This document shows positions 12,221 to 61,000 of a stretch of 64,000 nucleotides of DNA, one piece after another. Both the position numbers and the translations under genes were made by a program. The first letter of the stretch is position 1. Each line of letters starts with the position of its first letter. Below the pieces are notes generated by a model. That model made no database searches. It was not told where the DNA came from and saw only the letters and a list, made by a program, of their open reading frames with translations. Source of the DNA: Fusobacterium varium (lineage in GTDB: Bacteria > Fusobacteriota > Fusobacteriia > Fusobacteriales > Fusobacteriaceae); assembly GCA_002356455.1 (NCBI GenBank), contig AP017968.1:2852001-2916000 (forward strand), given 5' to 3'.

Positions 12221-13087
12221 ATGATTAAAACAAACAAAGAATTTTTAGTTATGCAATCAGTAGGAGGAAAAGTACACAGCCCTACTATAGCTTCTCCTTA
12301 CAGAATTTCCAGAGATGGAGACCCTATGATTTTACCAGCTACTGGTGGTATTTCTTACAATGTAAAAGTTGGAGATTCATGTATGACATGGGTAGGAGAT
12401 CATGTTGAACCAGGAGTAAGTGTCAAAAATGATAATGTTAATGAAAATAATGCTCTTATGGTCCTTGGATGCATTGGAAATACAGCAAAAGTAATGACAG
12501 GAGATGCTAAAGGAGCTACTGGTTTTGTTACTGGTGGTCATGGTGGAATTGAACATACTCTTGTATATTTCGATGAAGAAACTTTAGAAAAATTAAATAT
12601 TGATGATAAAATACTTGTAAAAGCTTTTGGACAAGGGTTAAAAATAGAAGGTTTTGATGATGTTGTATGTATGAATATTGATCCTGCTCTTTTAGAAAAA
12701 ATGAAAATAAAAATAACTAAAGATGGATGCTTAGAAGTTCCTGTAGCTACAGAAATTCCTCCTTATCTGATGGGGTCAGGAGTAGGAAGTGCTACTGCCT
12801 TTTCTGGAGATTATGATATTATGACAGGAGATAAAGAAGCAAATGAAAAATATGGTATTAATGAACTGAGATTTGGAGATATTGTTTTGCTTCAAGACTG
12901 CAACAATTGCTTTGGAAGAGATTATCTAAAGGGGTCAGTTACTATTGGAGTAGTTGTTCACAGTGATTGTATAAAAGCTGGACATGGCCCTGGAGTCACT
13001 GCTATCATGAGCTGTCCTGTTTCAAAAATCAGAGGAAGAAAAGATAAAAATGCTAATATAGCATATTACCTAGGAATTACAAAGTAA
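12221..13087 (+). CDS. DUF4438 domain-containing protein
   Basis: The 288-residue protein matches the DUF4438 family (Thermotoga TM1086-like), known mainly from structural genomics. Visible conserved stretches include VGDHVEPGVSV, MVLGCIGNTAKV, GHGGIEHTLVYF and the C-terminal ADCIKAGHGPGV-type motif (here HSDCIKAGHGPG) rich in His, Asp and Cys. The catalytic activity is unknown. A strong AGGAGG precedes the ATG. It is a single transcription unit with its own terminator. Confidence 0.82.
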   Translation: MIKTNKEFLVMQSVGGKVHSPTIASPYRISRDGDPMILPATGGISYNVKVGDSCMTWVGDHVEPGVSVKNDNVNENNALMVLGCIGNTAKVMTGDAKGATGFVTGGHGGIEHTLVYFDEETLEKLNIDDKILVKAFGQGLKIEGFDDVVCMNIDPALLEKMKIKITKDGCLEVPVATEIPPYLMGSGVGSATAFSGDYDIMTGDKEANEKYGINELRFGDIVLLQDCNNCFGRDYLKGSVTIGVVVHSDCIKAGHGPGVTAIMSCPVSKIRGRKDKNANIAYYLGITK

Positions 13088-13155
13088 ATTAAGATATATC
13101 AAAAATTGTAATTAGATTTAATATATCTAAAAATTATAAATGAATTTAAAATATT

Positions 13156-13188
13156 AAGATGGATGACAAAAACTCATCCATCTTTTTT
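13156..13188 (+). terminator. Terminator of the DUF4438 gene
   Basis: A perfect stem AAGATGGATGA / TCATCCATCTT with a seven-base loop and a following T6 run is a textbook intrinsic terminator, 69 bases after the stop codon. Confidence 0.9.
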
Positions 13189-13200
13189 ACAAAAAACTTG

Positions 13201-13229
13201 TTGCATAAGTTTTAAAAAGATGGTATATT
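13201..13229 (+). promoter_or_regulatory. Promoter of the MarR gene
   Basis: TTGCAT (13201-13206), a 17-base spacer and TATATT (13224-13229) form a near-consensus sigma70 promoter. The palindromic operator begins five bases after the -10 box, where a bound repressor would block initiation. Confidence 0.8.
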
Positions 13230-13233
13230 AGTT

Positions 13234-13251
13234 TATGTGGTTAAACACATA
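13234..13251. promoter_or_regulatory. MarR operator, copy 1
   Basis: TATGTGGTTAAACACATA has perfect 6-base arms (TATGTG/CACATA) around GTTAAA. The identical 18-mer recurs at 13729-13746, in front of the next gene. The repetition and its position at the start site argue that this is the binding site of the adjacent MarR protein. Confidence 0.8.
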
Positions 13252-13268
13252 TTTTCAAAGGAGGATAT

Positions 13269-13703
13269 ATGGAAGACTATAATTTACAAAAATCATTGGG
13301 ATTTAAGCTGGAACTTGCCTCTCGTCTTACAACTGGAAATTTCAGTAAAAAATTAAAAGAAGATAAGTTCCCTATTACTCCTGAACAATGGGGAGTTATC
13401 AATTTTCTTCTCCATGAAGATGGACTTACTCAAAATCAAATATCAAAACTAGTTGGAAAAGATCATACTTGTGTATCAAGACTTATAGAAAATCTTATTA
13501 AGAAAAATATTGTAAAAAAAATACCTGATGCAGATGATAAAAGAATCAATCTCATATATCTCACTGAAGAAGGGAAAAAAATACAGAACAATGTTGTTCT
13601 CACTGTAAAAGAAAACCTGTATAAAGTTTTTGCTAATGTTACAGATGAAGAGAAAATTATATTTTCAAAAGTATTAGATAAAATAATAAAAAATTTGGAG
13701 TAA
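13269..13703 (+). CDS. MarR family transcriptional regulator
   Basis: The 144-residue protein has the winged-helix layout of MarR: LTQNQISKLVGKDHTCVSRLIENLIKKNIVKKIPDADDKRINLIYLTEEG covers the recognition helix and the wing with its DxR motif. Dimerisation helices lie at both ends. Its own promoter contains a perfect palindrome that recurs before the downstream gene. It is therefore probably an autorepressor that also controls the secreted protein and the flavoprotein downstream. The inducer is unknown; MarR proteins usually respond to phenolics, oxidants or thiols. GGAGG precedes the ATG. Confidence 0.9.
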   Translation: MEDYNLQKSLGFKLELASRLTTGNFSKKLKEDKFPITPEQWGVINFLLHEDGLTQNQISKLVGKDHTCVSRLIENLIKKNIVKKIPDADDKRINLIYLTEEGKKIQNNVVLTVKENLYKVFANVTDEEKIIFSKVLDKIIKNLE

Positions 13704-13728
13704 AGATATTCTAAATTTTTTATTTAAA

Positions 13729-13746
13729 TATGTGGTTAAACACATA
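13729..13746. promoter_or_regulatory. MarR operator, copy 2
   Basis: This is an exact copy of the 18-base palindrome TATGTGGTTAAACACATA, placed 22 bases before the start codon of the following gene, where it would block initiation or early transcription. It links the marR gene to the secreted protein and flavoprotein genes. Confidence 0.78.
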
Positions 13747-13767
13747 AAATAAATGGGAGGATTTATA

Positions 13768-14670
13768 ATGAAACAAATCAAATCTTTAAAATTTATGCTT
13801 CTGATATTTCTGTTTATTTTTGCAATTTCAGCTATAGGAAAAACTCCAGCAGGTGAACAGCAATTAAAAAGAAGCTATCTTATTCTCAATCTAACTGACC
13901 TCAATGATCTGCCTAAGGCTAACAGATGGCTGTTTAAAGATCATGCCTCTGACACAGTAAATATCAATGGACCTATCTTGGCTGGGTATTCTACCTATAG
14001 AGCTCTTCCTTTGCCTGAAGGAGCTGATCTTTATGGTGCATATAATTGGAGAATGACTGAACACTATTGGAGAGAAGATCCTTTTTCTATGGAAGATGAA
14101 TTAAATCAAGGAACAGCTATGAGTGAAGTATGGGTAGAGGGATACAATGAAATGATAGGAAACCCTGTAAATTCTGAAAAGAGAGCTGACTGGGAAGAAC
14201 AGGAAAATAAAAATGCTCACCCTGCTGCCTTTATTTTTGTAAACAGAAGAATAGACAACGACTTCAAAGGATATGGGCTCACAAGTGCTGATGGACCATT
14301 TTTTAGATTTGTAGCAGCTATCAAATATCCTGACAATGTTTCAGAAAAAGATGGAGAAGAATGGTTTATTAATTCTTTTATCCCTTCTATAATCAAACAG
14401 GATGATCTTCTGAGATGCTTTTCATATAAGGCTATTTCCCCTAAAACTTCCCCTTTTATAAGAGTAGTAGAATTCTGGTATAGGGATTCAAATACTTGGA
14501 AGAAAAATTGGGTAGATAATATGCCCGATACTGAAAAACCAAAATGGGCTGAAAAAAATCAACAGTTCCCTTATTTGAAGCCATATAAAGATATTGTGAG
14601 TATATTTTTAGAAGAGCATGCAGAAAGAGATTTTTTGAGAGATGGAACCGAGTACCATTTTACAAATTAA
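13768..14670 (+). CDS. Secreted protein with two related EthD/Dabb-like halves
   Basis: The 300-residue protein starts at the ATG after GGGAGG; an upstream in-frame ATG lies inside the ribosome site. It has a signal peptide (MKQIKSLKFMLLIFLFIFAISAIG). The mature part contains two similar halves: RMTEHYWRED in the first and RVVEFWYRDS in the second, each followed by Trp- and Asp-rich segments. This looks like a tandem dimeric alpha-beta barrel (EthD-like), but the reaction is not known. It is controlled with the MarR gene and lies 39 bases before a flavoprotein gene, so an oxidoreductive detoxification role is possible. Confidence 0.65.
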   Translation: MKQIKSLKFMLLIFLFIFAISAIGKTPAGEQQLKRSYLILNLTDLNDLPKANRWLFKDHASDTVNINGPILAGYSTYRALPLPEGADLYGAYNWRMTEHYWREDPFSMEDELNQGTAMSEVWVEGYNEMIGNPVNSEKRADWEEQENKNAHPAAFIFVNRRIDNDFKGYGLTSADGPFFRFVAAIKYPDNVSEKDGEEWFINSFIPSIIKQDDLLRCFSYKAISPKTSPFIRVVEFWYRDSNTWKKNWVDNMPDTEKPKWAEKNQQFPYLKPYKDIVSIFLEEHAERDFLRDGTEYHFTN

Positions 14671-14709: not shown

Positions 14710-15645
14710 ATGAAAATATTAGGAATATCAGCAGGAACTAGAAATGGAAATAATGACTCCATGTGTAAAGAAGCTTTAATGGGCGCTAAAGAAATGGGAG
14801 CTGAAATTGAATTTATCAGACTTCTTGATCTTGATATAAAATATTGTACTGGATGTATAGCTTGTGTCAAAAGTCTAATGAGTGGTAAAGGTGGGCAATG
14901 CATATTAAAAGATGATTTTGAATGGCTGAGAGATAAAATGATGGATGCAGATGGAATTATCTTTTCTGTCCCTATTTTCGAAAAAGGAGCTGCTGCAATT
15001 TTCCGTTCACTGACAGATCGTTTTGGACCTAGAATGGATAGAGGAAATAATTTGGCTGCTACTGAGATAGCAAAGCAAACTAATCGAAAAGTTCCTGATC
15101 AAAGAGTTTTTAAAGAAAAAGTTATTTCATATATAGCTCTTGGAGGATCTGACTGGACTACAAGAATACAGTGTGATTTTGAAATGCTTTCTTTAATCCC
15201 TATGTGGAAAACTATAAATAATGAAGTTTTTTCATGGTCAAAAAATGTAATCATGGAAGATGAAAAAGTGGCTAAAATACATCAAATAGGAATTGATTTA
15301 GCTAAAGCTGCTGTTGATATGAAAAATGCTCAATATCTGGGAGATAAAGGAGTATGTCCTCACTGTCATAGCAGAAACTTCTACCTAAATGATGATTCTA
15401 CTAAAGCTATATGCTGCCTATGCGGAATAGTTGGGGAAATAAAAATAAAAGATGGAAAAGTAAAATTTGAATTTCCTCATGAACAATTAGAGCATGCACA
15501 TAATTCTATGCCAGGTAAATTTATTCATATGAACGATATTAAGAATAATGAAGGAGCATTGATAGAAACTAAAAAAACGGAAGCATATAAAGAACGTCTA
15601 AATAAATACAAAGAATTTATTCAGCCAGCTTTTCCTATAAAATAA
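14710..15645 (+). CDS. Flavodoxin-fold NAD(P)H-dependent oxidoreductase with zinc ribbon
   Basis: The 311-residue protein begins with the FMN-binding flavodoxin-like fold of NADPH-dependent FMN reductases (MKILGISAGTRNGNNDSMCKEAL, then the cysteine-bearing CTGCIACVKS loop as in iron-sulfur flavoproteins, and DGIIFSVPIFEKGAAA). A C-terminal extension holds CPHC and CCLC pairs about 20 residues apart, a likely zinc or Fe-S ribbon. The family reduces quinones, nitro compounds or disulfides; the substrate is unknown here. The context, downstream of a MarR operator and a secreted EthD-like protein, suggests an inducible stress or detoxification operon. Confidence 0.78.
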   Translation: MKILGISAGTRNGNNDSMCKEALMGAKEMGAEIEFIRLLDLDIKYCTGCIACVKSLMSGKGGQCILKDDFEWLRDKMMDADGIIFSVPIFEKGAAAIFRSLTDRFGPRMDRGNNLAATEIAKQTNRKVPDQRVFKEKVISYIALGGSDWTTRIQCDFEMLSLIPMWKTINNEVFSWSKNVIMEDEKVAKIHQIGIDLAKAAVDMKNAQYLGDKGVCPHCHSRNFYLNDDSTKAICCLCGIVGEIKIKDGKVKFEFPHEQLEHAHNSMPGKFIHMNDIKNNEGALIETKKTEAYKERLNKYKEFIQPAFPIK

Positions 15646-15688
15646 TTTTAAAATATTTTTATTATACTAAATATTTAAATATCAAAAA

Positions 15689-17459
15689 GGGGCTGTTGCA
15701 AATTTAAAACAGCCCAATTATCAAAAAAGCTGACTTGAAGTTTTCTTCTTGTCAGCTTTTTCTTTTTAAATAAAAAAAGGTATAAAATACTAAAAAATTT
15801 TTCAAATTTCTAATATAATATACCTATGCAAAAACCAATTAATAATAACATTTTTTTTCAATTAAATCAACCCAAACTTTTTAACTTTTTACAATATGAA
15901 ATTTCTGATGATGATCCTGTAAGAAAACTTAGCTCAATATTGGAGGGATTAGATTTTAGTAGTTTAATGCAAGCATTTTCTTACAAAACAAAGGTACATC
16001 CTATCAGAATGTTTTCTATCATTGTTTATGCCTATTCGCGCAATTTAACTTCTACTAGAGATATAGAAATGGCTTGCCATGAAAATATTAAATTTAGGTT
16101 TCTTTTACAAGATTCTAAAATTCCTGATCACTCTACTATTTCTAGATTCTTAGTAAAAACTGAAGATATTCTTCCAGATCTATTTGAACAATTCGTTGAA
16201 AAAATTTTTGAAATGGAAAATATTTCCACTGAAACAATATATATTGATGGCACTAAAATTGAAGCATATGCTAATAAATATACATTTGTTTGGAAAAAAT
16301 CTATTGAAAAATATAGAACTAGATTAGATGAAAAAATTCTTGAATTAATTTCAAATTTTAATGATGATTTCAACTTACAATATGACAACTTCCTTGAAAT
16401 ATATTCATATCTTTCTAATTTGAATTTTCAAATAGTCAAAGGTAGAGGAAAGAGAAAATCTAAAGAGCAAAAGTATTTAGAATTATGCGCAGAATACTTA
16501 GAAAAGTATCAAAAATATTCTAATCATTTTAAAAATCTTAATGGTAGAAATAGCTATTCAAAAACTGATATAGATGCTACTTTTATGAGAATGAAAGATG
16601 ACCATATGAGAAATGGTCAATTAAAACCTGGATATAATCTGCAAATAGGAGTGATTAGTGAATATATTTCTTCATATGAAATTTTTTCTAACCCTTCTGA
16701 TTCTAAAACTTTGATTCCATTTTTAGAGAAAATTTCATCTCAAAATTTAGAAATTAAAAATATTGTAGCTGATGCAGGATATGAAAGCATTTCAAATTAT
16801 GAATATTTGGAAAAAATGGACTATACTTCATACATAAAACCAATATATTTTGAAAAATCTAAAATCAGAAAGTTTAAAAATGATTTAAACAGAGTAGAAA
16901 ATTTAATATATAATCATTCTGAAAATAAACTATTTAGAAAAGATGGATTAGAATTAGAATTTCTATACTCTAACAAAAATAATACAGTTCAATATTTTTG
17001 GAATCCTGAAACTAACAAAAAAATTAAGTACAATGCGAGATTTAGAATTTTATCAAATAAATCAAAAGAGAATGTATCAAGCAATTATGGAAAACAATTA
17101 AGAATGAACAGAAGTATTCAAGTAGAAGGTGCTTTTGCAGTTTTGAAAGAAGATATGAAATTGCGAAAATTAAAAGTTCGAAGTAAAAAAAGTGTTTTAA
17201 GAGAAATATGTTTGTTTTGTATCGCTTACAACTTCAACAGATATCTAAGCAGAAATATAAATAATCGCTTAGGAACAACACTTCACTCATTAAAAGTAGC
17301 TTAGATAAATAAAAAATCATCTACTTCTTTTTTTGATACTTAAAAATAAATATAAAAATATAAATTAGCAGAAATCTATAAAATAGATTTCTATTTTTTT
17401 ATGTAAAATAAGAGAGGCTGCACAAATTAGTTTATCAATCACTAATTTGCAACAGCCCC
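15689..17459 (+). mobile_element. IS1182-like insertion sequence, copy 1
   Basis: The 1771-bp element is bounded by inverted GGGGCTGTTGCAAATT ends; AAA before and TTT after the ends are shared by both copies in this window and may belong to the repeat. Each end contains a subterminal hairpin. The left has GGGCTGTT/AACAGCCC and then AAAAGCTGAC/GTCAGCTTTT. The right has AAATTAGT/ACTAATTT. These probably insulate the transposase gene from outside transcription. No target duplication is evident. Copy 2, inverted and almost identical, is at 26513-28283. Confidence 0.93.
15826..17304 (+). CDS. IS1182-family DDE transposase (copy 1)
   Basis: The 492-residue protein is a full-length transposase. The N-terminal DUF772-type domain (FSYKTKVHPIRMFSIIVYAYSRN, DHSTISRF) is followed by the DDE catalytic core with IYIDGTKIEAYANKYTFVWKK, VADAGYES and the C-terminal EGAFAVLKEDMKLRKLKVR segment containing the last acidic residue. 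No frameshift or stop interrupts it, so it is probably active. It differs from copy 2 at four residues (I/T, D/N, A/V and E/K). The -10-like TATAAT at 15813-15818 lies just before the start codon. Confidence 0.95.
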   Translation: MQKPINNNIFFQLNQPKLFNFLQYEISDDDPVRKLSSILEGLDFSSLMQAFSYKTKVHPIRMFSIIVYAYSRNLTSTRDIEMACHENIKFRFLLQDSKIPDHSTISRFLVKTEDILPDLFEQFVEKIFEMENISTETIYIDGTKIEAYANKYTFVWKKSIEKYRTRLDEKILELISNFNDDFNLQYDNFLEIYSYLSNLNFQIVKGRGKRKSKEQKYLELCAEYLEKYQKYSNHFKNLNGRNSYSKTDIDATFMRMKDDHMRNGQLKPGYNLQIGVISEYISSYEIFSNPSDSKTLIPFLEKISSQNLEIKNIVADAGYESISNYEYLEKMDYTSYIKPIYFEKSKIRKFKNDLNRVENLIYNHSENKLFRKDGLELEFLYSNKNNTVQYFWNPETNKKIKYNARFRILSNKSKENVSSNYGKQLRMNRSIQVEGAFAVLKEDMKLRKLKVRSKKSVLREICLFCIAYNFNRYLSRNINNRLGTTLHSLKVA

Positions 17460-17480
17460 TTTTTACAATATCATTTTTTA

Positions 17481-26481: not shown

Positions 26482-26510
26482 ATTTTATCATATTTTATTT
26501 TTTATATCAA
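26482..26510 (-). promoter_or_regulatory. Promoter of the WYL-rtcB operon abutting IS copy 2
   Basis: Minus-strand TTGATA (26510-26505), a 17-base spacer and TAAAAT (26487-26482) make a good sigma70 promoter. The -35 box begins within three bases of the IS end, so the insertion has just spared it or has supplied part of its upstream region. Confidence 0.6.
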
Positions 26511-26512
26511 AA

Positions 26513-28283
26513 GGGGCTGTTGCAAATTAGTGATTGATAAACTAATTTGTGCAGCCTCTCTTATTTTTCATAAAAAAATAGAAATCTATAAAATAGATTT
26601 CTGCTAATTTATATTTTTATATTTATTTTTAAGTATCAAAAAAAGAAGTAGATGATTTTTTATTTATCTAAGCTACTTTTAATGAGTGAAGTGTTGTTCC
26701 TAAGCGATTATTTATATTTCTGCTTAGATATCTGTTGAAGTTGTAAGCGATACAAAACAAACATATTTCTCTTAAAACACTTTTTTTACTTCGAACTTTT
26801 AATTTTCGCAATTTCATATCTTCTTTCAAAACTGCAAAAGCACCTTCTACTTGAATACTTCTGTTCATTCTTAATTGTTTTCCATAATTGCTTGATACAT
26901 TCTCTTTTGATTTATTTGATAAAATTCTAAATCTCGCATTGTACTTAATTTTTTTGTTAGTTTCAGGATTCCAAAAATATTGAACTGTATTATTTTTGTT
27001 AGAGTATAGAAATTCTAATTCTAATCCATCTTTTCTAAATAGCTTATTTTCAGAATGATTATATATTAAATTTTCTACTCTGTTTAAATCATTTTTAAAC
27101 TTTCTGATTTTAGATTTTTCAAAATATATTGGTTTTATATATGAAGTATAGTCCATTTTTTCCAAATATTCATAATTTGAAATACTTTCATATCCTGCAT
27201 CAGCTACAATATTTTTAATTTTTAAATTTTGAGATGAAATTTTCTCTAAAAATGGAATCAAAGTTTTAGAATCAGAAGGGTTAGAAAAAATTTCATATGA
27301 AGAAATATATTCACTAATCACTCCTATTTGCAGATTATATCCAGGTTTTAATTGACCATTTCTCATATGGTCATCTTTCATTCTCATAAAAGTAGCATCT
27401 ATATCAGTTTTTGAATAGCTATTTCTACCATTAAGATTTTTAAAATGATTAGAATATTTTTGATACTTTTCTAAGTATTCTGCGCATAATTCTAAATACT
27501 TTTGCTCTTTAGATTTTCTCTTTCCTCTACCTTTGACTATTTGAAAATTCAAATTAGAAAGATATGAATATATTTCAAGGAAGTTGTCATATTGTAAGTT
27601 GAAATCATCATTAAAATTTGAAATTAATTCAAGAATTTTTTCATCTAATCTAGTTCTATATTTCTCAATAGATTTTTTCCAAACAAATGTATATTTATTA
27701 GCATATGCTTCAATTTTAGTGCCATCAATATATATTGTTTCAGTGGAAATATTTTCCATTTCAAAAATTTTTTCAACGAATTGTTCAAATAGATCTGGAA
27801 GAATATCTTCAGTTTTTACTAAGAATCTAGAAATAGTAGAGTGATCAGGAATTTTAGAATCTTGTAAAAGAAACCTGAATTTAATATTTTCATGGCAAGC
27901 CATTTCTATATCTCTAGTAGAAGTTAAATTGCGCGAATAGGCATAAACAATGATAGAAAACATTCTGATAGGATGTACCTTTGTTTTGTAAGAAAATACT
28001 TGCATTAAACTACTAAAATCTAATCCCTCCAATATTGAGCTAAGTTTTCTTACAGGATCATTATCAGAAATTTCATATTGTAAAAAGTTAAAAAGTTTAG
28101 GTTGATTTAATTGAAAAAAAATGTTATTATTAGTTGGTTTTTGCATAGGTATATTATATTAGAAATTTGAAAAAATTTTTAGTATTTTATACCTTTTTTT
28201 ATTTAAAAAGAAAAAGCTGACAGGAAGAAAACTTCAAGTCAGCTTTTTTGATAATTGGGCTGTTTTAAATTTGCAACAGCCCC
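26513..28283 (-). mobile_element. IS1182-like insertion sequence, copy 2 (inverted)
   Basis: The element is also 1771 bp with the same GGGGCTGTTGCAAATT ends as copy 1, in the opposite orientation. Four residue changes in the transposase and at least two base changes in the flanking non-coding parts separate the copies, pointing to recent spread. Its right-hand end lies one base from the stop codon of the MerR gene and its left end lies three bases from the -35 box of the WYL-rtcB promoter. No target duplication is visible. Confidence 0.93.
26668..28146 (-). CDS. IS1182-family DDE transposase (copy 2)
   Basis: This 492-residue full-length transposase is the same protein as copy 1 except for Thr for Ile at residue 5, Asn for Asp in the SDxDP stretch, Val for Ala in LMQxFSYK and Lys for Glu in SSQNLxIKN. 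All catalytic segments (YIDGTKIEAY, VADAGYES, EGAFAVLKEDMK) are intact, so both copies can be expected to be functional and to act on each other's ends. Confidence 0.95.
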   Translation of the reverse strand: MQKPTNNNIFFQLNQPKLFNFLQYEISDNDPVRKLSSILEGLDFSSLMQVFSYKTKVHPIRMFSIIVYAYSRNLTSTRDIEMACHENIKFRFLLQDSKIPDHSTISRFLVKTEDILPDLFEQFVEKIFEMENISTETIYIDGTKIEAYANKYTFVWKKSIEKYRTRLDEKILELISNFNDDFNLQYDNFLEIYSYLSNLNFQIVKGRGKRKSKEQKYLELCAEYLEKYQKYSNHFKNLNGRNSYSKTDIDATFMRMKDDHMRNGQLKPGYNLQIGVISEYISSYEIFSNPSDSKTLIPFLEKISSQNLKIKNIVADAGYESISNYEYLEKMDYTSYIKPIYFEKSKIRKFKNDLNRVENLIYNHSENKLFRKDGLELEFLYSNKNNTVQYFWNPETNKKIKYNARFRILSNKSKENVSSNYGKQLRMNRSIQVEGAFAVLKEDMKLRKLKVRSKKSVLREICLFCIAYNFNRYLSRNINNRLGTTLHSLKVA

Positions 28284-28284
28284 T

Positions 28285-29145
28285 TTATTTTATTGGTATT
28301 TTTACTGCATACAGCAGCTCTTTAGGATCTTTTACAAATCCAGGTCCAGCCAGAAAATGTATGATAATATCTCCTTCGATTTCAAAATTATTATTCTTTA
28401 TCCATTTTAAAAGTTTTTCAACATATTCTCTTCTGTCCCTAAATCTATTTTTACAATAAAGACATGCATATTTACTTTTAGGCAGCACTATTTTCTTTTC
28501 AATATTCTTTACATCACGCATAAGAATAATTTTTTCCTCTTTAAAACTTCCATTTTCAATATTTTTTTGAGGAATTATCAAAGCATATATTCCTATTGGT
28601 AAGGTAGTATTATTCAAAGGTACATCTATTTTTTTTGTTGTTTCAGATAAATTACTGTTGCTTAATGAAACATCTAATTTTTTAAATGCTGCCTGAATTA
28701 TTTTTTTAGGATCTGTATCTAAAGATATATCTGTATATACAGCTTTTATTTCTTCAATTTCTTCTATAAAAAAAATGTCTATCTTCTCTTCAATTTCAAT
28801 TAACTGTTTTATTTGATCAGCATTTTGCACTAATTCTTTTTCTATTCTTTGAAGTCTTTTTATTTCCATTTTTGTTTCTTCTATTATTTTTGTTATTAAT
28901 TCTAAAGTGTGAGAATAATTAAGATTTTTCAAATGACTTTTTATGGAATCGTTGCTAAATCCTAGTTTTTTTAAATGTATTATTATTTTCAATACTGGTA
29001 TTTGAAAACCAGTATAATATCTATAATTATTTTTTTCATCTTTTAAAGCTGGAGAAAATATTCCTTCACTGTCATAATAACGCAATGTAGAGATAGGAAC
29101 TGCTGTAAGTTTTGATATTTCTCCAATTGTTAAATAATCTTCCAT
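28285..29145 (-). CDS. MerR family regulator with GyrI-like effector domain
   Basis: The 286-residue protein has the MerR winged helix (YLTIGEISKLTAVPISTLRYYDSEGIFSPA, residues 3-~75), a long dimerisation coiled coil (~80-125, KMEIKRLQRIEKELVQNADQIKQLI), and a C-terminal GyrI-like ligand-binding domain as in BmrR/BltR multidrug sensors. MerR proteins twist promoters with 19-base spacers; exactly such a promoter precedes this operon at 33315-33345. It is the last gene after the fusion protein and RND pump, so it probably autoregulates the export system in response to its substrate. The stop codon lies at the junction with IS copy 2. Confidence 0.88.
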   Translation of the reverse strand: MEDYLTIGEISKLTAVPISTLRYYDSEGIFSPALKDEKNNYRYYTGFQIPVLKIIIHLKKLGFSNDSIKSHLKNLNYSHTLELITKIIEETKMEIKRLQRIEKELVQNADQIKQLIEIEEKIDIFFIEEIEEIKAVYTDISLDTDPKKIIQAAFKKLDVSLSNSNLSETTKKIDVPLNNTTLPIGIYALIIPQKNIENGSFKEEKIILMRDVKNIEKKIVLPKSKYACLYCKNRFRDRREYVEKLLKWIKNNNFEIEGDIIIHFLAGPGFVKDPKELLYAVKIPIK

Positions 29146-41791: not shown

Positions 41792-42454
41792 CTAATTTTT
41801 TATCTCAAATTTATAACCTATCCCTCTAACAGTTTTTATACATTCATCTCCCAGTTTTTTTCTTAAATTCTTTATATGTGTATCTATTGTTCTATCACTT
41901 CCAGGAAAATCATATCCCCATACCTCTGTAAGCATTTTATCTCTGCTGAGAGCAATTTTATGATTTTTTATAAGGTATATTAAAAGTTCATATTCTTTAG
42001 GTGCTAAAATAATTTCTTCTCCTTCTACTGTTACTGTATGAGATGTATCATTAATAGCTATTTTCCCTAATTCAATAATGTGATCTGTGTTATTACTTGT
42101 ATTTTTTATAAGAGTTTTTATTCTTGCTAAAAGTATTTTATTATTAAAAGGTTTTGTAATATATTCATCTGTTCCTATTTCAAAACCAAACAATTCATCT
42201 TCATCATCATCTCTTGCAGATAATATCATAACAGGAACTGAGCTGTATTTTTTTATTTCTCTTAAAACACTCCATCCATCTTTTTTAGGTAACATTATAT
42301 CAAGTATTACTAAATCAAACGGCTTTTCATAAAAAAGTTTTATTGCCACTTCTCCATCTTCAGCCTCTGTCACATCGTAACCTTCCTTTAGAAGATATAA
42401 TTTCAAAATATTTCTTATCTCCATTTCATCTTCTACTATTAAAATTTTTTTCAT
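41792..42454 (-). CDS. OmpR/PhoB family response regulator
   Basis: The 220-residue protein has a receiver domain (KKILIVEDEMEIRNILKLYL; phospho-accepting Asp in LVILDIMLPKKDG; Lys in ITKPFNN) and a C-terminal winged helix of the OmpR type (APKEYELLIYLIKNHKIALSRDKMLTEVWGYDFPGSDRTIDTHIKNLRKKLG). It is the partner of the kinase downstream. The targets are not shown; the porin genes upstream and pump genes downstream are candidates. Confidence 0.93.
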   Translation of the reverse strand: MKKILIVEDEMEIRNILKLYLLKEGYDVTEAEDGEVAIKLFYEKPFDLVILDIMLPKKDGWSVLREIKKYSSVPVMILSARDDDEDELFGFEIGTDEYITKPFNNKILLARIKTLIKNTSNNTDHIIELGKIAINDTSHTVTVEGEEIILAPKEYELLIYLIKNHKIALSRDKMLTEVWGYDFPGSDRTIDTHIKNLRKKLGDECIKTVRGIGYKFEIKN

Positions 42455-42502
42455 ATATTTATTGTCCTCCCATTTTTTATCCTTACTTTTTAAATATATA
42501 AG

Positions 42503-42541
42503 AAAAAAGAGTTAACCAAAATAAAAGCTTTGGCTAACTCC
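42503..42541 (-). terminator. Terminator of porin gene 1
   Basis: On the minus strand GAGTTAGCCA and TGGTTAACTC pair (one mismatch) across a loop, followed by TTTTTTC. It lies about 60 bases after the porin stop and before the response-regulator start, so the two-component genes use their own promoter. Confidence 0.8.
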
Positions 42542-42599
42542 CCTTTATAATGTTGGTTAGTTAAGAATGTCCTAAGTTGTAAAGTAATAACCTAACTTA

Positions 42600-43676
42600 C
42601 TAGAATGAAGCTCTAAATCCTGCAAATACAGTTGGCTGCCATCTCCAGTCTTTAGCATCGCTTTTAGCAGTGATTGCCCAGTTTCTATATTCTGCTCCAG
42701 CTGCTGCATATACTTTAAAGCTTGGAGTTGCTTGATAATTTACTTGAACATATGGTAATGCATATAATTCATAATCTTGTTTTTGATCTAATGCACCATA
42801 TTTTTTGTATTGAGACCAGCTATAATCATCATATCCACCTTCGAAGTTGAAATCAACTGTTACATCTCCATTAGTGTATAGATTAGTTGTATTGTAGATA
42901 TAAGCCTCTACATCAATTGTAAAGTTTTTATCTTTTATTTTGTTTCCTCTGTCAAATACTTGATCTCTTCCATAGAAGTGTTGAGTATTGTACATATTGA
43001 ACTCAAAAGAGAATCCCCATGGTAATTCGAAGTAAGTATATAAATCTGCTCCTACTTGATTATCATAATTATCTCCTTGATTAGCAGCATCTGCATTCCA
43101 TTGATATCTGTATTTTGGTGCAACAACGAAATTAGTAGTTTTTATAAAATCATTGTTGAACATATACTCAGCAAAATTAAATCTTGCTTGATATTCTAAT
43201 TCTTGATGCTTATCTGTATCTTCTCTGTCTCTATAGTGGATTCTTGATGTAAAGTTAACATTAGAATCTCCTACATTTCCATGATTATAGAAATATCTTA
43301 ATCTTGTGTCAGTACCTGATTTTCCAAGTCTGTCAGAAGAATCATTTCCATAATTTCTGATTCTGTATTCGAAAGATTGATTTTCAGTCATGTTGATTTT
43401 TCCCATTAACTGAGTTCTTCCATATTTTGTAGCTCCTGCCCAGTCATTTTCAGCAGAAGTTTGGTTTTCAGTTTCTCCATACCATCTGTATTGTAAATCT
43501 ACATATCCATTTGGTCTGAATCCTACTGGTGCTCTGTCTCTGTAGACAATAACTTCTTTTTCAACGATTTGTACTGGTGCTTCTGTTACTACAACTGGAG
43601 CAGGTACAACTTCTTTAGCTTGTGCCATTGCTGCAACTGTTAAAAATGCACCAACTAATAATAAAGATTTTTTCAT
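42600..43676 (-). CDS. FomA-like major outer-membrane porin (paralog 1)
   Basis: The 358-residue protein has a signal peptide (MKKSLLLVGAFLTVAAMAQA), a short proline/valine-rich linker with EKEVIVYRDRAP, and a beta-barrel with alternating strands (GYVDLQYRWYGE, NFTSRIHYRDREDT) ending in the C-terminal Phe (FAGFRASF) required for outer-membrane assembly. This is the FomA fusobacterial porin type, a voltage-dependent general channel, adhesin and antigen. It is about 60% identical by eye to paralog 2; the signal, linker and C terminus are nearly the same. AGGGGGT precedes the ATG. Confidence 0.92.
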   Translation of the reverse strand: MKKSLLLVGAFLTVAAMAQAKEVVPAPVVVTEAPVQIVEKEVIVYRDRAPVGFRPNGYVDLQYRWYGETENQTSAENDWAGATKYGRTQLMGKINMTENQSFEYRIRNYGNDSSDRLGKSGTDTRLRYFYNHGNVGDSNVNFTSRIHYRDREDTDKHQELEYQARFNFAEYMFNNDFIKTTNFVVAPKYRYQWNADAANQGDNYDNQVGADLYTYFELPWGFSFEFNMYNTQHFYGRDQVFDRGNKIKDKNFTIDVEAYIYNTTNLYTNGDVTVDFNFEGGYDDYSWSQYKKYGALDQKQDYELYALPYVQVNYQATPSFKVYAAAGAEYRNWAITAKSDAKDWRWQPTVFAGFRASF

Positions 43677-43805
43677 AAAAAATACCCCCTATTTTCTATA
43701 TTTTAAATTATATATACCGAAATATATAATAATTCACATTAAAGATGACAATTTACCTAATCTGGGAAACTGGTAAATCATCACCTTATTCTTGGGAAGA
43801 GCAAT

Positions 43806-43834
43806 AATATATAAAAGATTAGCAACTTTTACAA
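43806..43834 (-). promoter_or_regulatory. Promoter of porin gene 1
   Basis: Minus-strand TTGTAA (43834-43829), 17-base spacer, TATATT (43811-43806). The resulting leader of about 120 bases contains TTTCCCAG (43762-43769), shared with the leader of paralog 2. The spacer contains GTTGCTAAT, also shared. Confidence 0.65.
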
Positions 43835-43902
43835 TATTTCTCTTATACAAAGAATATAATATAGAAAAGTGAAGAAAATATGTTTTATTAGTGTGCATCA
43901 AC

Positions 43903-43931
43903 AGAAAAAACTCTTTTATTAAAAAGAGTTC
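43903..43931 (-). terminator. Terminator of porin gene 2
   Basis: On the minus strand AACTCTTTTT and AAAAGAGTT pair with a short loop and are followed by TTTTTTC, 35 bases after the stop codon of the second porin. Confidence 0.82.
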
Positions 43932-43965
43932 TTCCTTTTATATAAAATATTTAGACTTTTATAGT

Positions 43966-45072
43966 TTAAAAAGTAGTCTTAAATCCTACAACAGCTGTTG
44001 GTTGCCATCTCCAGTCTTTAGCACTTTTTTGATTTATATTTGCCCAGTTTCTATATTCAGCTCCTAAAGAAGCGTATACATTAAAGTTAGGACTAACTTT
44101 ATATGTTGTTATAATTTGTGGATAAGCATATAATTCATAAGTGTTATCATTGTAAGTATAATTAGCAGGATCTTTTAAATCTCCTTTTTCATTTATAGCT
44201 GTTCTTAATACTTTCTCTGAATTCCAGTTATATGGATCATATCCACCTTCAAAGTAGAAATCTATATCGACTTTATCATTTGTATATAAATTAGTTGTAT
44301 TGTATAAATAAGCTTCCATTGTTAATCCAGTATTATTTTTTACTGTACTATGGTCATTAGTATATTGACGTTGCCCATAGAAATACTGGTCTCCATACAA
44401 ATTAAATTCAAATGAAAATCCAAATGGAAATTGATGCATTGTAAATAAATCTATTCCTAATCTATTTTGATAATCATCACTGTTAGATGCCCAGTAATAT
44501 TTATATTTAGGAGCGATTGTAAATTCTGTAGTTTTTACAAAATCATTATTAAATAAATAATCTGCAAAATTGAACCTTGCTTGATATTCTAATGATTGCG
44601 CATCATTTTCAGCTTCTTTTCTGTATTCTATTCTAGATGTTAAATTTACATTAGAATCTCCCAAATTTCCATGGTTATAGAAATATCTTAATCTTGTTTG
44701 AGTTCCATCTTCTCCTTTTTGTTTTTCGTTAGAAGAAGAGTTCCAGTCATTATATGATCTGATTCTATATTCTAAAGCTTGGTTCTCAGTCATATTAATT
44801 TTTCCCATTAACTGTGTTCTTCCATAATTGTTATTTACACCATTATTCTTGTAATTAAGTTCTTCAGCTTCTCCATAATATCTATATTGTAAATCAACAT
44901 ATCCATTTGGTCTGAATCCTTGTGGTTCTCTGTCTCTGTAGACAATAACTTCTTTTTCTACAACTTGTACTGGTGCTTCTTCTACAACTACTGGTGCAGG
45001 AACTATTTCTTTTGCCTGTGCCATTGCTGCAACTGTTAAAAATGCACCAACTAATAATAAAGATTTTTTCAT
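43966..45072 (-). CDS. FomA-like major outer-membrane porin (paralog 2)
   Basis: The 368-residue protein has the same signal peptide as paralog 1, the linker EKEVIVYRDREP, a FomA-type barrel (YGRTQLMGKINMTENQALEYRIRSYN, RLRYFYNHGNLGDSNVNLTSRIEYR), and the C-terminal VVGFKTTF. Differences concentrate in loops such as LNYKNNGVNNN and NEKGDLKDPANYTYNDN, consistent with surface-exposed antigenic loops. It has its own promoter, leader and terminator. The upstream intergenic gap of 668 bases is unusually large. Confidence 0.92.
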   Translation of the reverse strand: MKKSLLLVGAFLTVAAMAQAKEIVPAPVVVEEAPVQVVEKEVIVYRDREPQGFRPNGYVDLQYRYYGEAEELNYKNNGVNNNYGRTQLMGKINMTENQALEYRIRSYNDWNSSSNEKQKGEDGTQTRLRYFYNHGNLGDSNVNLTSRIEYRKEAENDAQSLEYQARFNFADYLFNNDFVKTTEFTIAPKYKYYWASNSDDYQNRLGIDLFTMHQFPFGFSFEFNLYGDQYFYGQRQYTNDHSTVKNNTGLTMEAYLYNTTNLYTNDKVDIDFYFEGGYDPYNWNSEKVLRTAINEKGDLKDPANYTYNDNTYELYAYPQIITTYKVSPNFNVYASLGAEYRNWANINQKSAKDWRWQPTAVVGFKTTF

Positions 45073-45167
45073 AAAAATACCCCCTAGTATTTATTATTAT
45101 AAAGTATAAGAGTATAACAACCTGGGAAATTGTTATATTCTTATAACTTTAATTTAAGAGAAAAATA

Positions 45168-45195
45168 ATCATAAGATAATTAGCAACTCTTATAA
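45168..45195 (-). promoter_or_regulatory. Promoter of porin gene 2
   Basis: Minus-strand TTATAA (45195-45190), 16-base spacer with GTTGCTAAT, TATGAT (45173-45168). The spacer element and the leader motif TTTCCCAG (45122-45129) match those of porin 1. Confidence 0.6.
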
Positions 45196-45409
45196 TTTCT
45201 TGTTTTCTACACTATTAATATAATAAATCTTGATGAAATCTATGTGAAAATGTCAAGAAATATGTCACCGCACTCTTTTATTCTTTATTTCAATATTTTT
45301 ATTCATATTATATATGTGTATAAACGTATTAAATTCAAAATATGTGTCTATAAAATTTTTACTTTTCCATAAAAACCATGTATATTTTTTTTGTATTATT
45401 GTCACAATT

Positions 45410-45438
45410 TTGACATAAATAGTTTTAAGGTTTATAGA
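45410..45438 (+). promoter_or_regulatory. Orphan consensus promoter
   Basis: TTGACA (45410-45415), a 17-base spacer and TATAGA (45433-45438) form a strong sigma70 promoter on the plus strand. No plus-strand gene follows; the next gene is convergent at 45741. It may drive a small RNA or be fortuitous. Confidence 0.4.
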
Positions 45439-45642
45439 TTATAAACTTATATTTTACACCAATAAAAAATTATTGTTAATATTTATTTCTTTATTTTAAT
45501 TTTTAGAACAAAAAATTATTTTTATGCTCATTTTAAAAAAATAATTAAAATAATTTTAAGACTGAAAATATTTATTTTATTAAAAATATTTATTTTAATA
45601 GATTTTTCAATATAAACTCAAAATTAAAATTTTTTATAAAAA

Positions 45643-58032: not shown

Positions 58033-61000
58033 ATGATTAAAGAAATGGAGAAAGCTTTAAAAAGATATCTAAAGGGAAAGAATAGAATAACAATGGGAGT
58101 GGTAGTAGCTTTTTTACTGGGAAGCAGTTTTGCATTTGGAGATGTTACGATAAAATATGATACTGCAGCTTCAACTCTTATTGTACAAGATGATTTAGGA
58201 ACTAATATAGGAACAGTAACAAAAAATCCTGCTGGTGAATTTACCTGGACATTACCAGAAGGAGCAAATATAACTGAAACTGTAAAAATAGATGATACAG
58301 TAAATACAAATAATATTAAAGTAAATATAGTGAACAGTGGAACTATAAGCAGTTCTGGAACTACAGGTAAATCAGGAAATGGATTATTTTCTTATTCTGA
58401 TACTTCAAGTAGTATAATAGGAAATATAACAAATAGTGGAAATATAAGTGGAAACAGTACTGGAGGAGATAGTTCAGGAAATGGAATTTATGCCTGCTCA
58501 GATTCATATATTTCCATTTCAAGTAGTATAATAGGAAATATAACAAATAGTGGAATAATTAGTGGTAGTACTACTGGTAGTAGAAACGATTCAGGAAATG
58601 GAATTTATTCTTCTTCTGTGAATGGAGATAGTACAATAGGAGATATAACAAATAGTGGAATAATTAGCGGAAATGGTTCTAGTAGTACTAGCGGAAATGG
58701 AATTTATTCTAGTTCTTATCGTTTTGATTCTTACCTAGAGAGTAAAATAGATAACATAACAAATAATGGAATAATTAGTGGAAATGACAGTGATGGATAT
58801 GATTCAGGAAATGGAATTTATTCTTATTCTTCTACTACTAATGGTTCTACAAAGAGTAAAATAGACAATATAACGAATTATGGAATAATTAGTGGAAATA
58901 ATAGTAGTAGTGCTGGACATGGAATTTATCTTCGTTCTATTTCTGGTCCGGCAATAATAGAATCAATTTCAAATTATGGTGTTATAATGGGAAATGGCAA
59001 GGGAATATATGTTGATGGAGATTCTAGGTCTAGTTCTAGTTCGGGAATTACTAACTACAATAACTATGGACTTATAATAGGAAGGACACCAGTTAAAATT
59101 GAAGGTGGAATAGAAATTACTAATCCTGAAGGACAGGGAATGGCTGTAACTCTTGATGGAAGTGGAAATATAACTTCTATTGCTTTAGGAACTGGAGGAA
59201 GTACAGGAATATATTCTATAGTGAATACTCAATTAAGAGATAATTTAGGAAGCGCAGTATCATCTGGTGCAGTAGATTCATATGATGTATATACAAGCGA
59301 CCAAAGTATTTCAGATACTATTATCAATGGTGCTGGTGTAAATAGTGGAACAGTGACAATAGAAGCAGATAAGAATTTTTCACTTAATGGCGGAATTATT
59401 AATGCCTATAAAACTGCTGTTACAGTTAAAGATGGAGCTTCATTTACTGGTACAGATGTAACAATCAATGGTGGGGGCTTAGATAAAACTACTCCTGTTA
59501 TTTCTGGAGATTCAGGAGCTAATACAGTAAATATATCTGGAAATTCTTTTATCAATGGAAAAGTTGATTTAGAAGATGGAGATGATACTTTATCTATTGG
59601 AAATTCCACTCAAATCAATGGAGATATAGATGGTGGAACAGGAACTGATACTCTTTATTTTGGTTCAGCTATTGCCAGAGCAGTGGGAAATGATAATATA
59701 AATCTTTTCCATAAAATATCAAATGTGGAAGAAATAAATATAAATCAAAAAGTAACTGCATTTGAAACTTCTGAAATTACAGGAGCAGATAAGATTAATA
59801 TTGGTAAAAATGGGGAGCTTGTATTAAGAATAGATGGAACAAATAGTAATAAACATGCACTTTCCAATGGAAATAGTAGTGGAACAATAGATTCAGATGG
59901 TGGAAAACTTCTTCTTGCGCTTAATGGAGTATCTGATGGAAGTACAATAGATATGGGAATGAATCTTGGAGATGGAATATATGGAGTGGAAAATCCAGAC
60001 ATAGAATATAGAGATTTATTTACTTTAGATACAACTTCATATTTACATTCTATTAGAAAAACTCCTGGTTCTTCAACAATAACAGTTGAAACTAAATCTA
60101 CACTTCCACTGTCACCAACAACACCTGAATATACAAATTATGGGAAATTAAATAAAATATATCAAAGTATGAGGGTTGTAGATGGTGTAAAAGAATTTAA
60201 TGTAGATACTGATGAAAAATTCTCATCTTTTATGGGATACTTAAATGATATCTATGCAGGAAATCCATACTCATATTCTTCTGAACTATCAAGAAAATCA
60301 ATGGGAATGTTCAGAGATATAGCTACTGAAAATTCATTTAAAGCAGATACAGGAAAATGGATGATATACGGCGGACTTACTCATATAGATGGAGGAACTA
60401 AAGATACATACTATGGAAAAGGATACTATACTTATGATATAGGAAGTTCTGATATAGATTCTGATACAAAAATCACAGGAGCATATATGCTTGGAGAGTA
60501 TGGAGTATCTGATGACTTTAAAGCTGGAGTGGCAGTTGGAGGAAACAAGTTTAAATCTGACTTGTCTAATGGCTCAAAAGTTGATGGAGATGCGCTGTAT
60601 ATTGGAGGATATGCTAAGAAGTATCTTGGAAATCTAAAAGTAACAGCAGGAGCAGGATTCCAGTATGGAGATTATGATGCAGACAGAACAGCAGCAGGAA
60701 GAGAAATTACAGAAACAAGAAGCTATTCTTCAAGCTACAATGATTTGACTTATGATATTTATCTGAATGGAAGATATTCACTTAATATTGGAGATAATCT
60801 ATACTTAGAACCTTATGGAACACTGTCATATACATATGTAAAACAGGATGGAGCAGATGAGGGAAATAAAACTTTAGCAATAGAAACAGATTCACAATCA
60901 TTTGACTACACAGTTGGAAAAATGGGAATAGATCTTAAAAAAGTGATACCACATGAAAAAGGAAAGAGTACATTATCAGTTGGAGCAAGCTATACAAAAA

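Follow-up and report, generated by a model that had tools for sequence, protein, structure and literature searches.

The marR, chi and flr genes of Fusobacterium varium probably constitute a small MarR-repressed cassette for the modification of plant flavonoids, in which the binding of MarR, the inducer and the enzyme activities are predicted. They are located in a stretch of 64,000 nucleotides (the window) and encode a MarR-family regulator, a homologue of bacterial chalcone isomerase (CHI), and a homologue of flavone reductase (FLR). The families of these genes, the two operator sites beside them, the conservation of the sites, and the restriction of the sites to the marR-bearing genomes of the genus were recognized from sequence, and repression, export of the chi product, and a physiological role in flavonoid handling would complete the scheme.

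The gene order of the locus is a DUF4438 gene (12221-13087, identified by Pfam scan, upstream of marR), a hairpin, a putative promoter, operator 1, marR, a second hairpin, operator 2, chi, flr, and a gene for an IS1182 transposase behind flr (15826-17304; NCBIfam, 1.8e-90). The hairpin between the DUF4438 gene and marR (13156..13184, 11 pairs) was terminator-like on the minus strand in the scan, with only four T after it on the plus strand, and the RNA fold of positions 13150-13195 (+) gave -14.1 kcal/mol (z -6.2). The putative marR promoter (13201..13229, +) was picked out by eye as TTGCAT (13201-13206) and TATATT (13224-13229) separated by 17 nt; it is absent from the list of the consensus scan, and its first hexamer scores only 3/6. 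Operator 1 (13234-13251, +) begins 4 nt past TATATT, at the likely transcription start of marR. The marR gene (13269..13703, +) is preceded by a ribosome site, GGAGG, at 13260-13264 and encodes a protein of 144 aa that exceeded the Pfam cut-offs for MarR_2 (44.5 bits against 27, E 1.8e-11) and MarR (29.2 against 24.6). An inverted-repeat operator at its own promoter is a trait of this family, and both the regulator and the operator upstream of it were found as the original prediction had described them.

A second, A+T-rich hairpin with 18-nt arms (13685..13724, +; -14.2 kcal/mol, z -6.6) spans the marR stop codon, and operator 2 (13729-13746, +) follows directly. This hairpin is missing from the list of the terminator scan, which requires three G-C pairs, and its counterpart in genome G018 is weaker (-9.5 kcal/mol, z -3.6). 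Since the stop-codon hairpin stands just before operator 2, two transcription units look likely, and this suggests that marR and chi-flr are separate units with one operator each. The chi gene (13768..14670, +; 300 aa, PF18232) was assigned the start that suits its ribosome site, with an in-frame ATG also present at 13753, and flr (14710..15645, +; 311 aa) encodes an FMN_red domain and a C-terminal part with a weak zinc-ribbon match. For chi-flr, no convincing pair of promoter hexamers kept between the clades was found by eye; a promoter-like site of the scan at 13723-13750 (9/12) straddles operator 2, and the region contains 27 promoter-like sites, about equal to the shuffle mean of 24.9.

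The transposase gene directly behind flr lies within an element (15684-17464) of which an apparently near-identical copy is found at 26509-28286. Elsewhere in the window, repeated blocks apparently paired about 1.4 kb apart (e.g., 42637/44003, 43501/44897 and 43621/45017) were noted at 42254-45549 and look like a duplicated gene stretch, and short exact repeats clustered at 58404-58899 perhaps mark a repetitive coding region.

Both operators consist of the same 18-mer, TATGTGGTTAAACACATA. The original prediction had described it as a palindrome occurring at these two sites; the two copies are indeed exact, but the sequence is only a near-palindrome, with eight of its nine pairs matching and one mismatched. 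The half-sites read TATGTG, and the centres of TGTG and CACA lie 10 bp from each other, a spacing of one helical turn that a winged-helix dimer would presumably require. The original argument that chance would not produce an exact 18-base repeat did not withstand simulation: exact 18-mer repeat pairs occurred with a mean of 1.4 and a maximum of 4 in 40 first-order Markov simulations of the window (29% GC), and an exact repeat of this length is by itself not rare at such a composition. Only 23 18-mers of the window, both operators included, are as palindromic as this one, so that chance would hardly yield a repeat that is palindromic as well and stands at two gene starts, and the case for the operators holds because of palindromy, placement before two genes and conservation, not because of exact repetition alone. 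Although repeats of this kind do arise by chance in an AT-rich window, it is extremely improbable that the pair is accidental, or the product of a recent duplication of a promoter stretch, and has no regulatory role, given that it is near-palindromic, precedes two gene starts, and has been kept in two diverged clades despite changed flanks.

When the genome (4,122,841 bases in 3 contigs) was searched with up to two mismatches, the 18-mer was found at these two places only, and the reversed-pattern control gave 1 match. With up to three mismatches in the window, it was again found at two places only (4 matches, as each place matches on both strands), against 0.13 matches expected in shuffled sequence. 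These results agree with the small regulon of the original prediction, and the occurrence of the 18-mer at many unrelated loci, named there as contrary evidence, was looked for genome-wide and was not seen. A degenerate pattern, TAWGTGKTTAAACACATW, was derived from the sites themselves, and its zero-mismatch hits are therefore not independent. Allowing up to two mismatches, this pattern matched two extra places in G000 (73780 and 1463304, each with two mismatches), which were rejected as further regulon members because the reversed-pattern control gave an equal number (2 forward, 2 reverse). As far as the sequence tells, the regulon appears to be confined to the two sites at this locus.

The pairing of the regulator with its sites is conserved within the genus. 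Orthologues of marR were found in five further genomes of the genus (69-99% identity), and paired sites flank marR in all six marR-bearing genomes, exactly two in each and within one mismatch of the degenerate pattern; operator 1 is kept with small changes in 6/6 of them, and operator 2 is likewise conserved in the genus. No site within one mismatch was detected in the other six of the 12 genus genomes, which also lack this marR. At the level of the phylum, marR was detected at E <= 1e-15 in seven of 98 genomes, namely the six cassette genomes and one carrying a relative of 33% identity. The cassette genomes form two clades, between which MarR is 69-70% and CHI 77% identical, and the sites persist while the flanks differ. 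In G000, G025 and G026, the cassette sits behind the DUF4438 gene; beyond flr follows what we take to be an amidohydrolase-like gene in G026 (in G000 beyond the IS element) and a different gene in G025. In G018, G020 and G021, we take the neighbours of the cassette to be MATE-like or regulator genes on one side and a methionine-type ABC transporter on the other. The amidohydrolase-like gene of G026 stands next to flr without an IS element between them. Since the sites are kept in different chromosomal settings, the operators travel with the genes.

The regulon is thus well supported by comparative evidence, with MarR as the protein predicted to bind the sites. We consider it very unlikely that the 18-mers are instead bound by another regulator, with marR merely one of its targets, or that MarR acts as an activator. 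Such readings draw on the ambiguous placement of operator 2 relative to a chi promoter; however, six genus genomes carry both this MarR and the paired sites, the other six carry neither, and operator 1 overlaps the likely start site of marR, as repression needs.

As originally predicted, operator 2 precedes a pair of genes for a secreted protein and a flavoprotein, secretion being read from a predicted export signal, but these names proved too generic. The flavoprotein, which had been taken for a flavin reductase, matched PF03358 (E 2.6e-16), with PF08271 at 19.1 bits and below the cut-off of 29. It aligned end to end with one solved protein, PDB 7d38 (E 1.2e-137), the flavone reductase of Flavonifractor plautii (PDB 7d38-7d3b; PMC7862272). 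Identity to this enzyme is 63% over 307 residues (aligned 1-309), and both identity and coverage reach the values of at least 30% and 80%, relative to the F. plautii FLR, that are applied to FLRs in PMC7862272. Of the 19 FMN, apigenin and tail positions named in the available parts of PMC7862272, every one of the five Fusobacterium rows retains the same 14, including G106, W149, H271 and I275, whose mutation cut FLR activity in the same study. The differing positions are Met10, Ser14, Val144, Thr279 and Thr305. Thr279, for which substrate activation through water has been proposed (PMC7862272), is replaced by Glu281 in 5/5 Fusobacterium rows, and because of this replacement the protein is named an FLR homologue only, with a predicted activity. 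All of 11 further FLRs were reported to be active (PMC7862272), and a second FLR homologue of F. plautii was reported not to reduce apigenin (PMC8398226); homology therefore does not assure FLR activity. The F. plautii enzyme is also described as unable to use NAD(P)H directly and as having been discovered through its chi partner (PMC7862272). The two systems share, besides sequence identity and the kept positions, the C-terminal part with a conserved Pro307 and the chi neighbour, and they differ in the fusobacterial host, in the MarR gene with its paired operators, and in that no phloretin hydrolase was found in the Fusobacterium genome.

The product of chi, originally described as EthD-like, was found to be a homologue of bacterial CHI. 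It exceeded the cut-off for PF18232 (Chalcone_N; 49.4 bits against 25, E 6.5e-13), and a search against solved-structure sequences gave, at E values up to 1, CHI entries only (four distinct sequences, all from Eubacterium ramulus; best 2e-29). The AlphaFold model of the protein had a mean pLDDT of 79.4, with a low-confidence lid at residues 133-140, and contained two ferredoxin-like domains as in CHI. The model matched CHI with a Foldseek E of 2.6e-22 and a VIA Z of 28.1 (rmsd 2.9 over 253 residues; next entry Z 13.5), although the alignment used by the predictor contained classical CHIs, so that the fold match is supporting rather than independent. The EthD fold is a related one (2ftr, Z 8.7 over 95 residues).

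Because the partner genes of the regulator are CHI and FLR homologues, they point to flavonoids rather than to quinones, nitroaromatics or oxidants, and the electrophile or quinone inducer of the original prediction was not supported. Phenolics, quinones or oxidants are the signals of many MarR proteins. The same circuit might on this ground be induced by a quinone, nitroaromatic or oxidant that both enzymes detoxify, and FLR shares the fold of WrbA, a stress oxidoreductase (PMC7862272). We regard this as unlikely, since the homology of the flavoprotein to FLR extends over the full length and includes most of the named substrate-contact residues and the C-terminal part, and since its partner is a CHI homologue in a pairing that is also present in F. 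plautii and in 19 further listed loci.

Residues of the E. ramulus CHI that are kept in the Fusobacterium protein comprise the catalytic His33 (His59 here), its helper Asp36, Tyr48 (Tyr74), Thr71, His73, Trp75 and Glu91, with residue roles as given in the available parts of PMC8361940 and PMC9694015. Seven of 21 pocket positions are equal to those of the E. ramulus enzyme and the other 14 differ. Eight positions that are invariant in 14 classical rows are changed (I12, V14, S37, F41, F50, Q69, Q101 and F135), and all five Fusobacterium-Alkalibaculum rows carry the replacements Gln69->Arg, Phe41->Asn, Phe50->Thr and Gln101->Asn. In the A-ring residue set Gln69/Thr71/Gln101, only Thr is kept, with Arg95 and Asn127 in place of the Gln residues; the A-ring positions are also reported as not conserved in branches 1-2 of the CHI tree (PMC8361940). 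As both A-ring Gln residues are replaced, the protein is named a CHI homologue and not a CHI, with a predicted activity. Its identity to 14 classical CHIs is 25-32% in the alignment, and that to the E. ramulus CHI is about 23-26% in structure alignments. The Fusobacterium CHI-like proteins and that of Alkalibaculum form their own clade apart from the 14 classical CHIs (support 100/100). The alignment comprised 15 of 20 CHIs from outside the genus, with those of L041, L050, L051, L065 and L069 omitted, and four of the six Fusobacterium CHIs; L050, L065 and L069 have doubtful N-terminal extensions. Within the family, CHI was found in six of 61 genomes, all of them in the genus of the window (6/12 there).

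Compared with the E. ramulus CHI (PDB 3zph and 4d06; PMC9694015, PMC8361940), the Fusobacterium protein thus shares PF18232, the two-domain fold and seven residues, and differs in its separate clade, the changed pocket, a shorter lid stretch, and an N-terminal export signal. It is possible, if clearly less probable than our preferred reading, that the circuit is right and the CHI-like protein is something other than a chalcone isomerase, namely an exported relative that acts on a different substrate or serves in binding, comparable to the low-similarity 'branch B' CHI-like proteins reported to have no CHI activity (data not shown there; PMC8361940). The depth of the clade, the 14 differing pocket positions, the export signal and the low confidence of the lid in the model all speak for this alternative. 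Against it, the catalytic His and Tyr are kept, the former being read as a clear sign of CHI activity (PMC8361940), the fold match to CHI stands well above the next entry (in a model fed with classical CHIs), and chi adjoins flr in five of the six cassette genomes.

The export signal was predicted at about residues 1-24 of the chi product; basic residues there are followed by a hydrophobic core that stops short of the conserved QLKRSYLIL. The best mean hydropathy over 13 residues was 2.81-3.44 in 4/4 Fusobacterium rows versus 0.22-1.08 in 15/15 others, and an N-terminal signal is visible by eye in all six Fusobacterium genomes. Since the CHI reading frame of Alkalibaculum starts at MKRSYL, the signal appears to have been added to the domain. 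From the N-terminal hydropathy, we infer that the CHI-like protein is exported. The change of the A-ring Gln pair to Arg and Asn and of two pocket Phe residues to Asn and Thr gives rise to a further idea, which we offer tentatively and consider unlikely: the Fusobacterium CHI-like enzymes would be a new, exported class that acts outside the inner membrane on substrates that enter poorly (e.g., flavanone or chalcone 7-O-glycosides), its product would cross the membrane and induce MarR, and FLR would work inside on the aglycone side. If true, the flavonoid pathway would be MarR-sensed and divided between two compartments, in contrast to that of clostridia, whose compared CHIs carry no export signal.

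At E <= 1e-60, FLR was detected in nine of 98 phylum genomes, including five of the six cassette genomes; these counts exclude short N-terminal matches, and the loci with such matches (L097-L116) were unused. In G021, marR, chi and both operators are kept, another gene replaces flr, and no full FLR is present elsewhere in the genome. CHI homologues were located near flr in 20 of 60 FLR loci from outside the genus (L037-L096, from the listed 80 of 166 relatives), F. plautii included. In a tree of 55 FLR ORFs from these 60 listed loci (E below 1e-60 after the ORF filter), a topology holding the five Fusobacterium FLRs together was rejected (p-AU 0.0205, for a group tested after the tree had been seen). 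The flr genes of the two clades lie apart in the trees and may have been replaced or gained separately.

A plasmid origin of the cassette was considered and rejected: no plasmid record holds it, and the DNA query matched one Clostridioides difficile record by way of flr. The CHI protein query matched three distant plasmid records, the same C. difficile one included. On this 163-kb C. difficile plasmid (NZ_CP149720.1, 65228-67819), about 0.9 kb separates a homologue of FLR (887 bases aligned at 69% DNA identity) from one of CHI (31%); flr-chi can therefore be plasmid-borne elsewhere. A Fusobacteriaceae MAG (G044; L156 and L157) encodes a pair of FLR homologues that share 65% and 54% identity with the one in the window, and it gave no CHI or MarR match. 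A gene for a DUF1097 protein stands beside flr in Clostridium and Lachnoclostridium (L041:4318-4908, L047:4317-4907 and L094:4250-4783). In a Holophagaceae genome (L061:4039-4926 and L083:3911-4798), a 295-aa protein with an EthD domain is encoded directly upstream of flr, where chi might be expected, and is possibly a CHI-like replacement.

Outside the genus, no MarR of this kind was found near flr in 2,631 reading frames of the 60 listed FLR loci, using a profile of five Fusobacterium MarRs that picks up an unrelated MarR at E 3.8e-9. These loci accordingly lend no support to MarR being a general partner of flr. Among 20 hand-picked ORFs neighbouring flr, Pfam identified TetR in four (L038, L040, L048 and L056) and LysR in five (L039, L050, L055, L059 and L068), and it seems that the flavone-reductase module has come under different regulators in different lineages. 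In two Clostridium species (L040:2290-5384 and L046:2841-5936), a TetR-sized gene, a gene for a protein of 479-483 aa and flr stand in a row, an arrangement suggestive of a flavonoid sensor plus a transporter. LmrA/QdoR (YxaF-like) of Bacillus subtilis are TetR-family repressors that are lifted by flavonoids, and an LmrA/YxaF-like TetR gene is located upstream of flr in Clostridium psychrophilum (L040). The targets of LmrA/QdoR differ from chi-flr, and their family is TetR, not MarR.

To place the cassette in a pathway, genes for later steps were sought. Phloretin hydrolase (PF18089) was detected in none of the 12 genus genomes and in none of 14 control genomes, and the same search was positive in all three comparison genomes (L051, F. 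plautii; L068, E. ramulus; and L039). The enoate reductase/Fcr family (PF00724) was found in 11 of the 12 genus genomes, and also in 13 of the 14 controls, as it is a broad family. As phloretin hydrolase was not found, the pathway is most likely truncated, with the cassette performing only the first steps. Apigenin inhibited all but two isolates of a test community, and FLR aided its carrier (PMC7862272); tolerance is therefore a reasonable role.

In the MarR-repressed flavonoid cassette that we favour, a MarR dimer would occupy both near-palindromes when no flavonoid is present and repress its own promoter as well as that of chi-flr. The inducer, be it a flavone, flavonol, flavanone or derived phenolic, would bind MarR and free the DNA, so that both units are switched on. 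FLR would then reduce the C2=C3 bond of flavones or flavonols in the cytoplasm. Outside the inner membrane, the flavanone or flavanonol so formed, or a related compound, would be opened or rearranged by the exported CHI-like enzyme. Such a truncated pathway may serve tolerance or electron disposal, with its products left to other organisms.

The enzymes themselves are homologues of known kinds and have already been noted in Fusobacterium MAGs: CHI-like genes with <40% identity in F. mortiferum and FLR-like genes in Fusobacterium are reported in PMC8398226, as far as its available parts show, and are probably the same genes as those described here. In the available parts of PMC7862272, PMC8361940, PMC9694015, PMC8398226, PMC11170127, PMC12940152 and PMC6152273, neither a regulator or operator of flr-chi nor an exported CHI is described; the MarR gene in PMC6152273 is a stress observation in Enterococcus. 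In the main text of PMC8398226, the terms 'regulator', 'signal peptide' and 'neighbo' occur 0 times, and its relevant section treats enzymes only. No published account of flr gene switching in a gut bacterium was found in the open-access literature, surveyed mostly at the level of listings. Thus, the control by MarR through twin operators and the CHI-like protein with its predicted export and altered pocket look new.

Flavone reduction is the entry step of flavonoid breakdown by gut bacteria. The cassette offers a regulon of two sites and two units together with a candidate MarR flavonoid sensor, and it places an export signal on an enzyme class that is otherwise without one in the 15 other members compared. 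Fusobacteria are usually regarded as amino-acid fermenters, and with this cassette they would join the organisms that answer dietary flavonoids.
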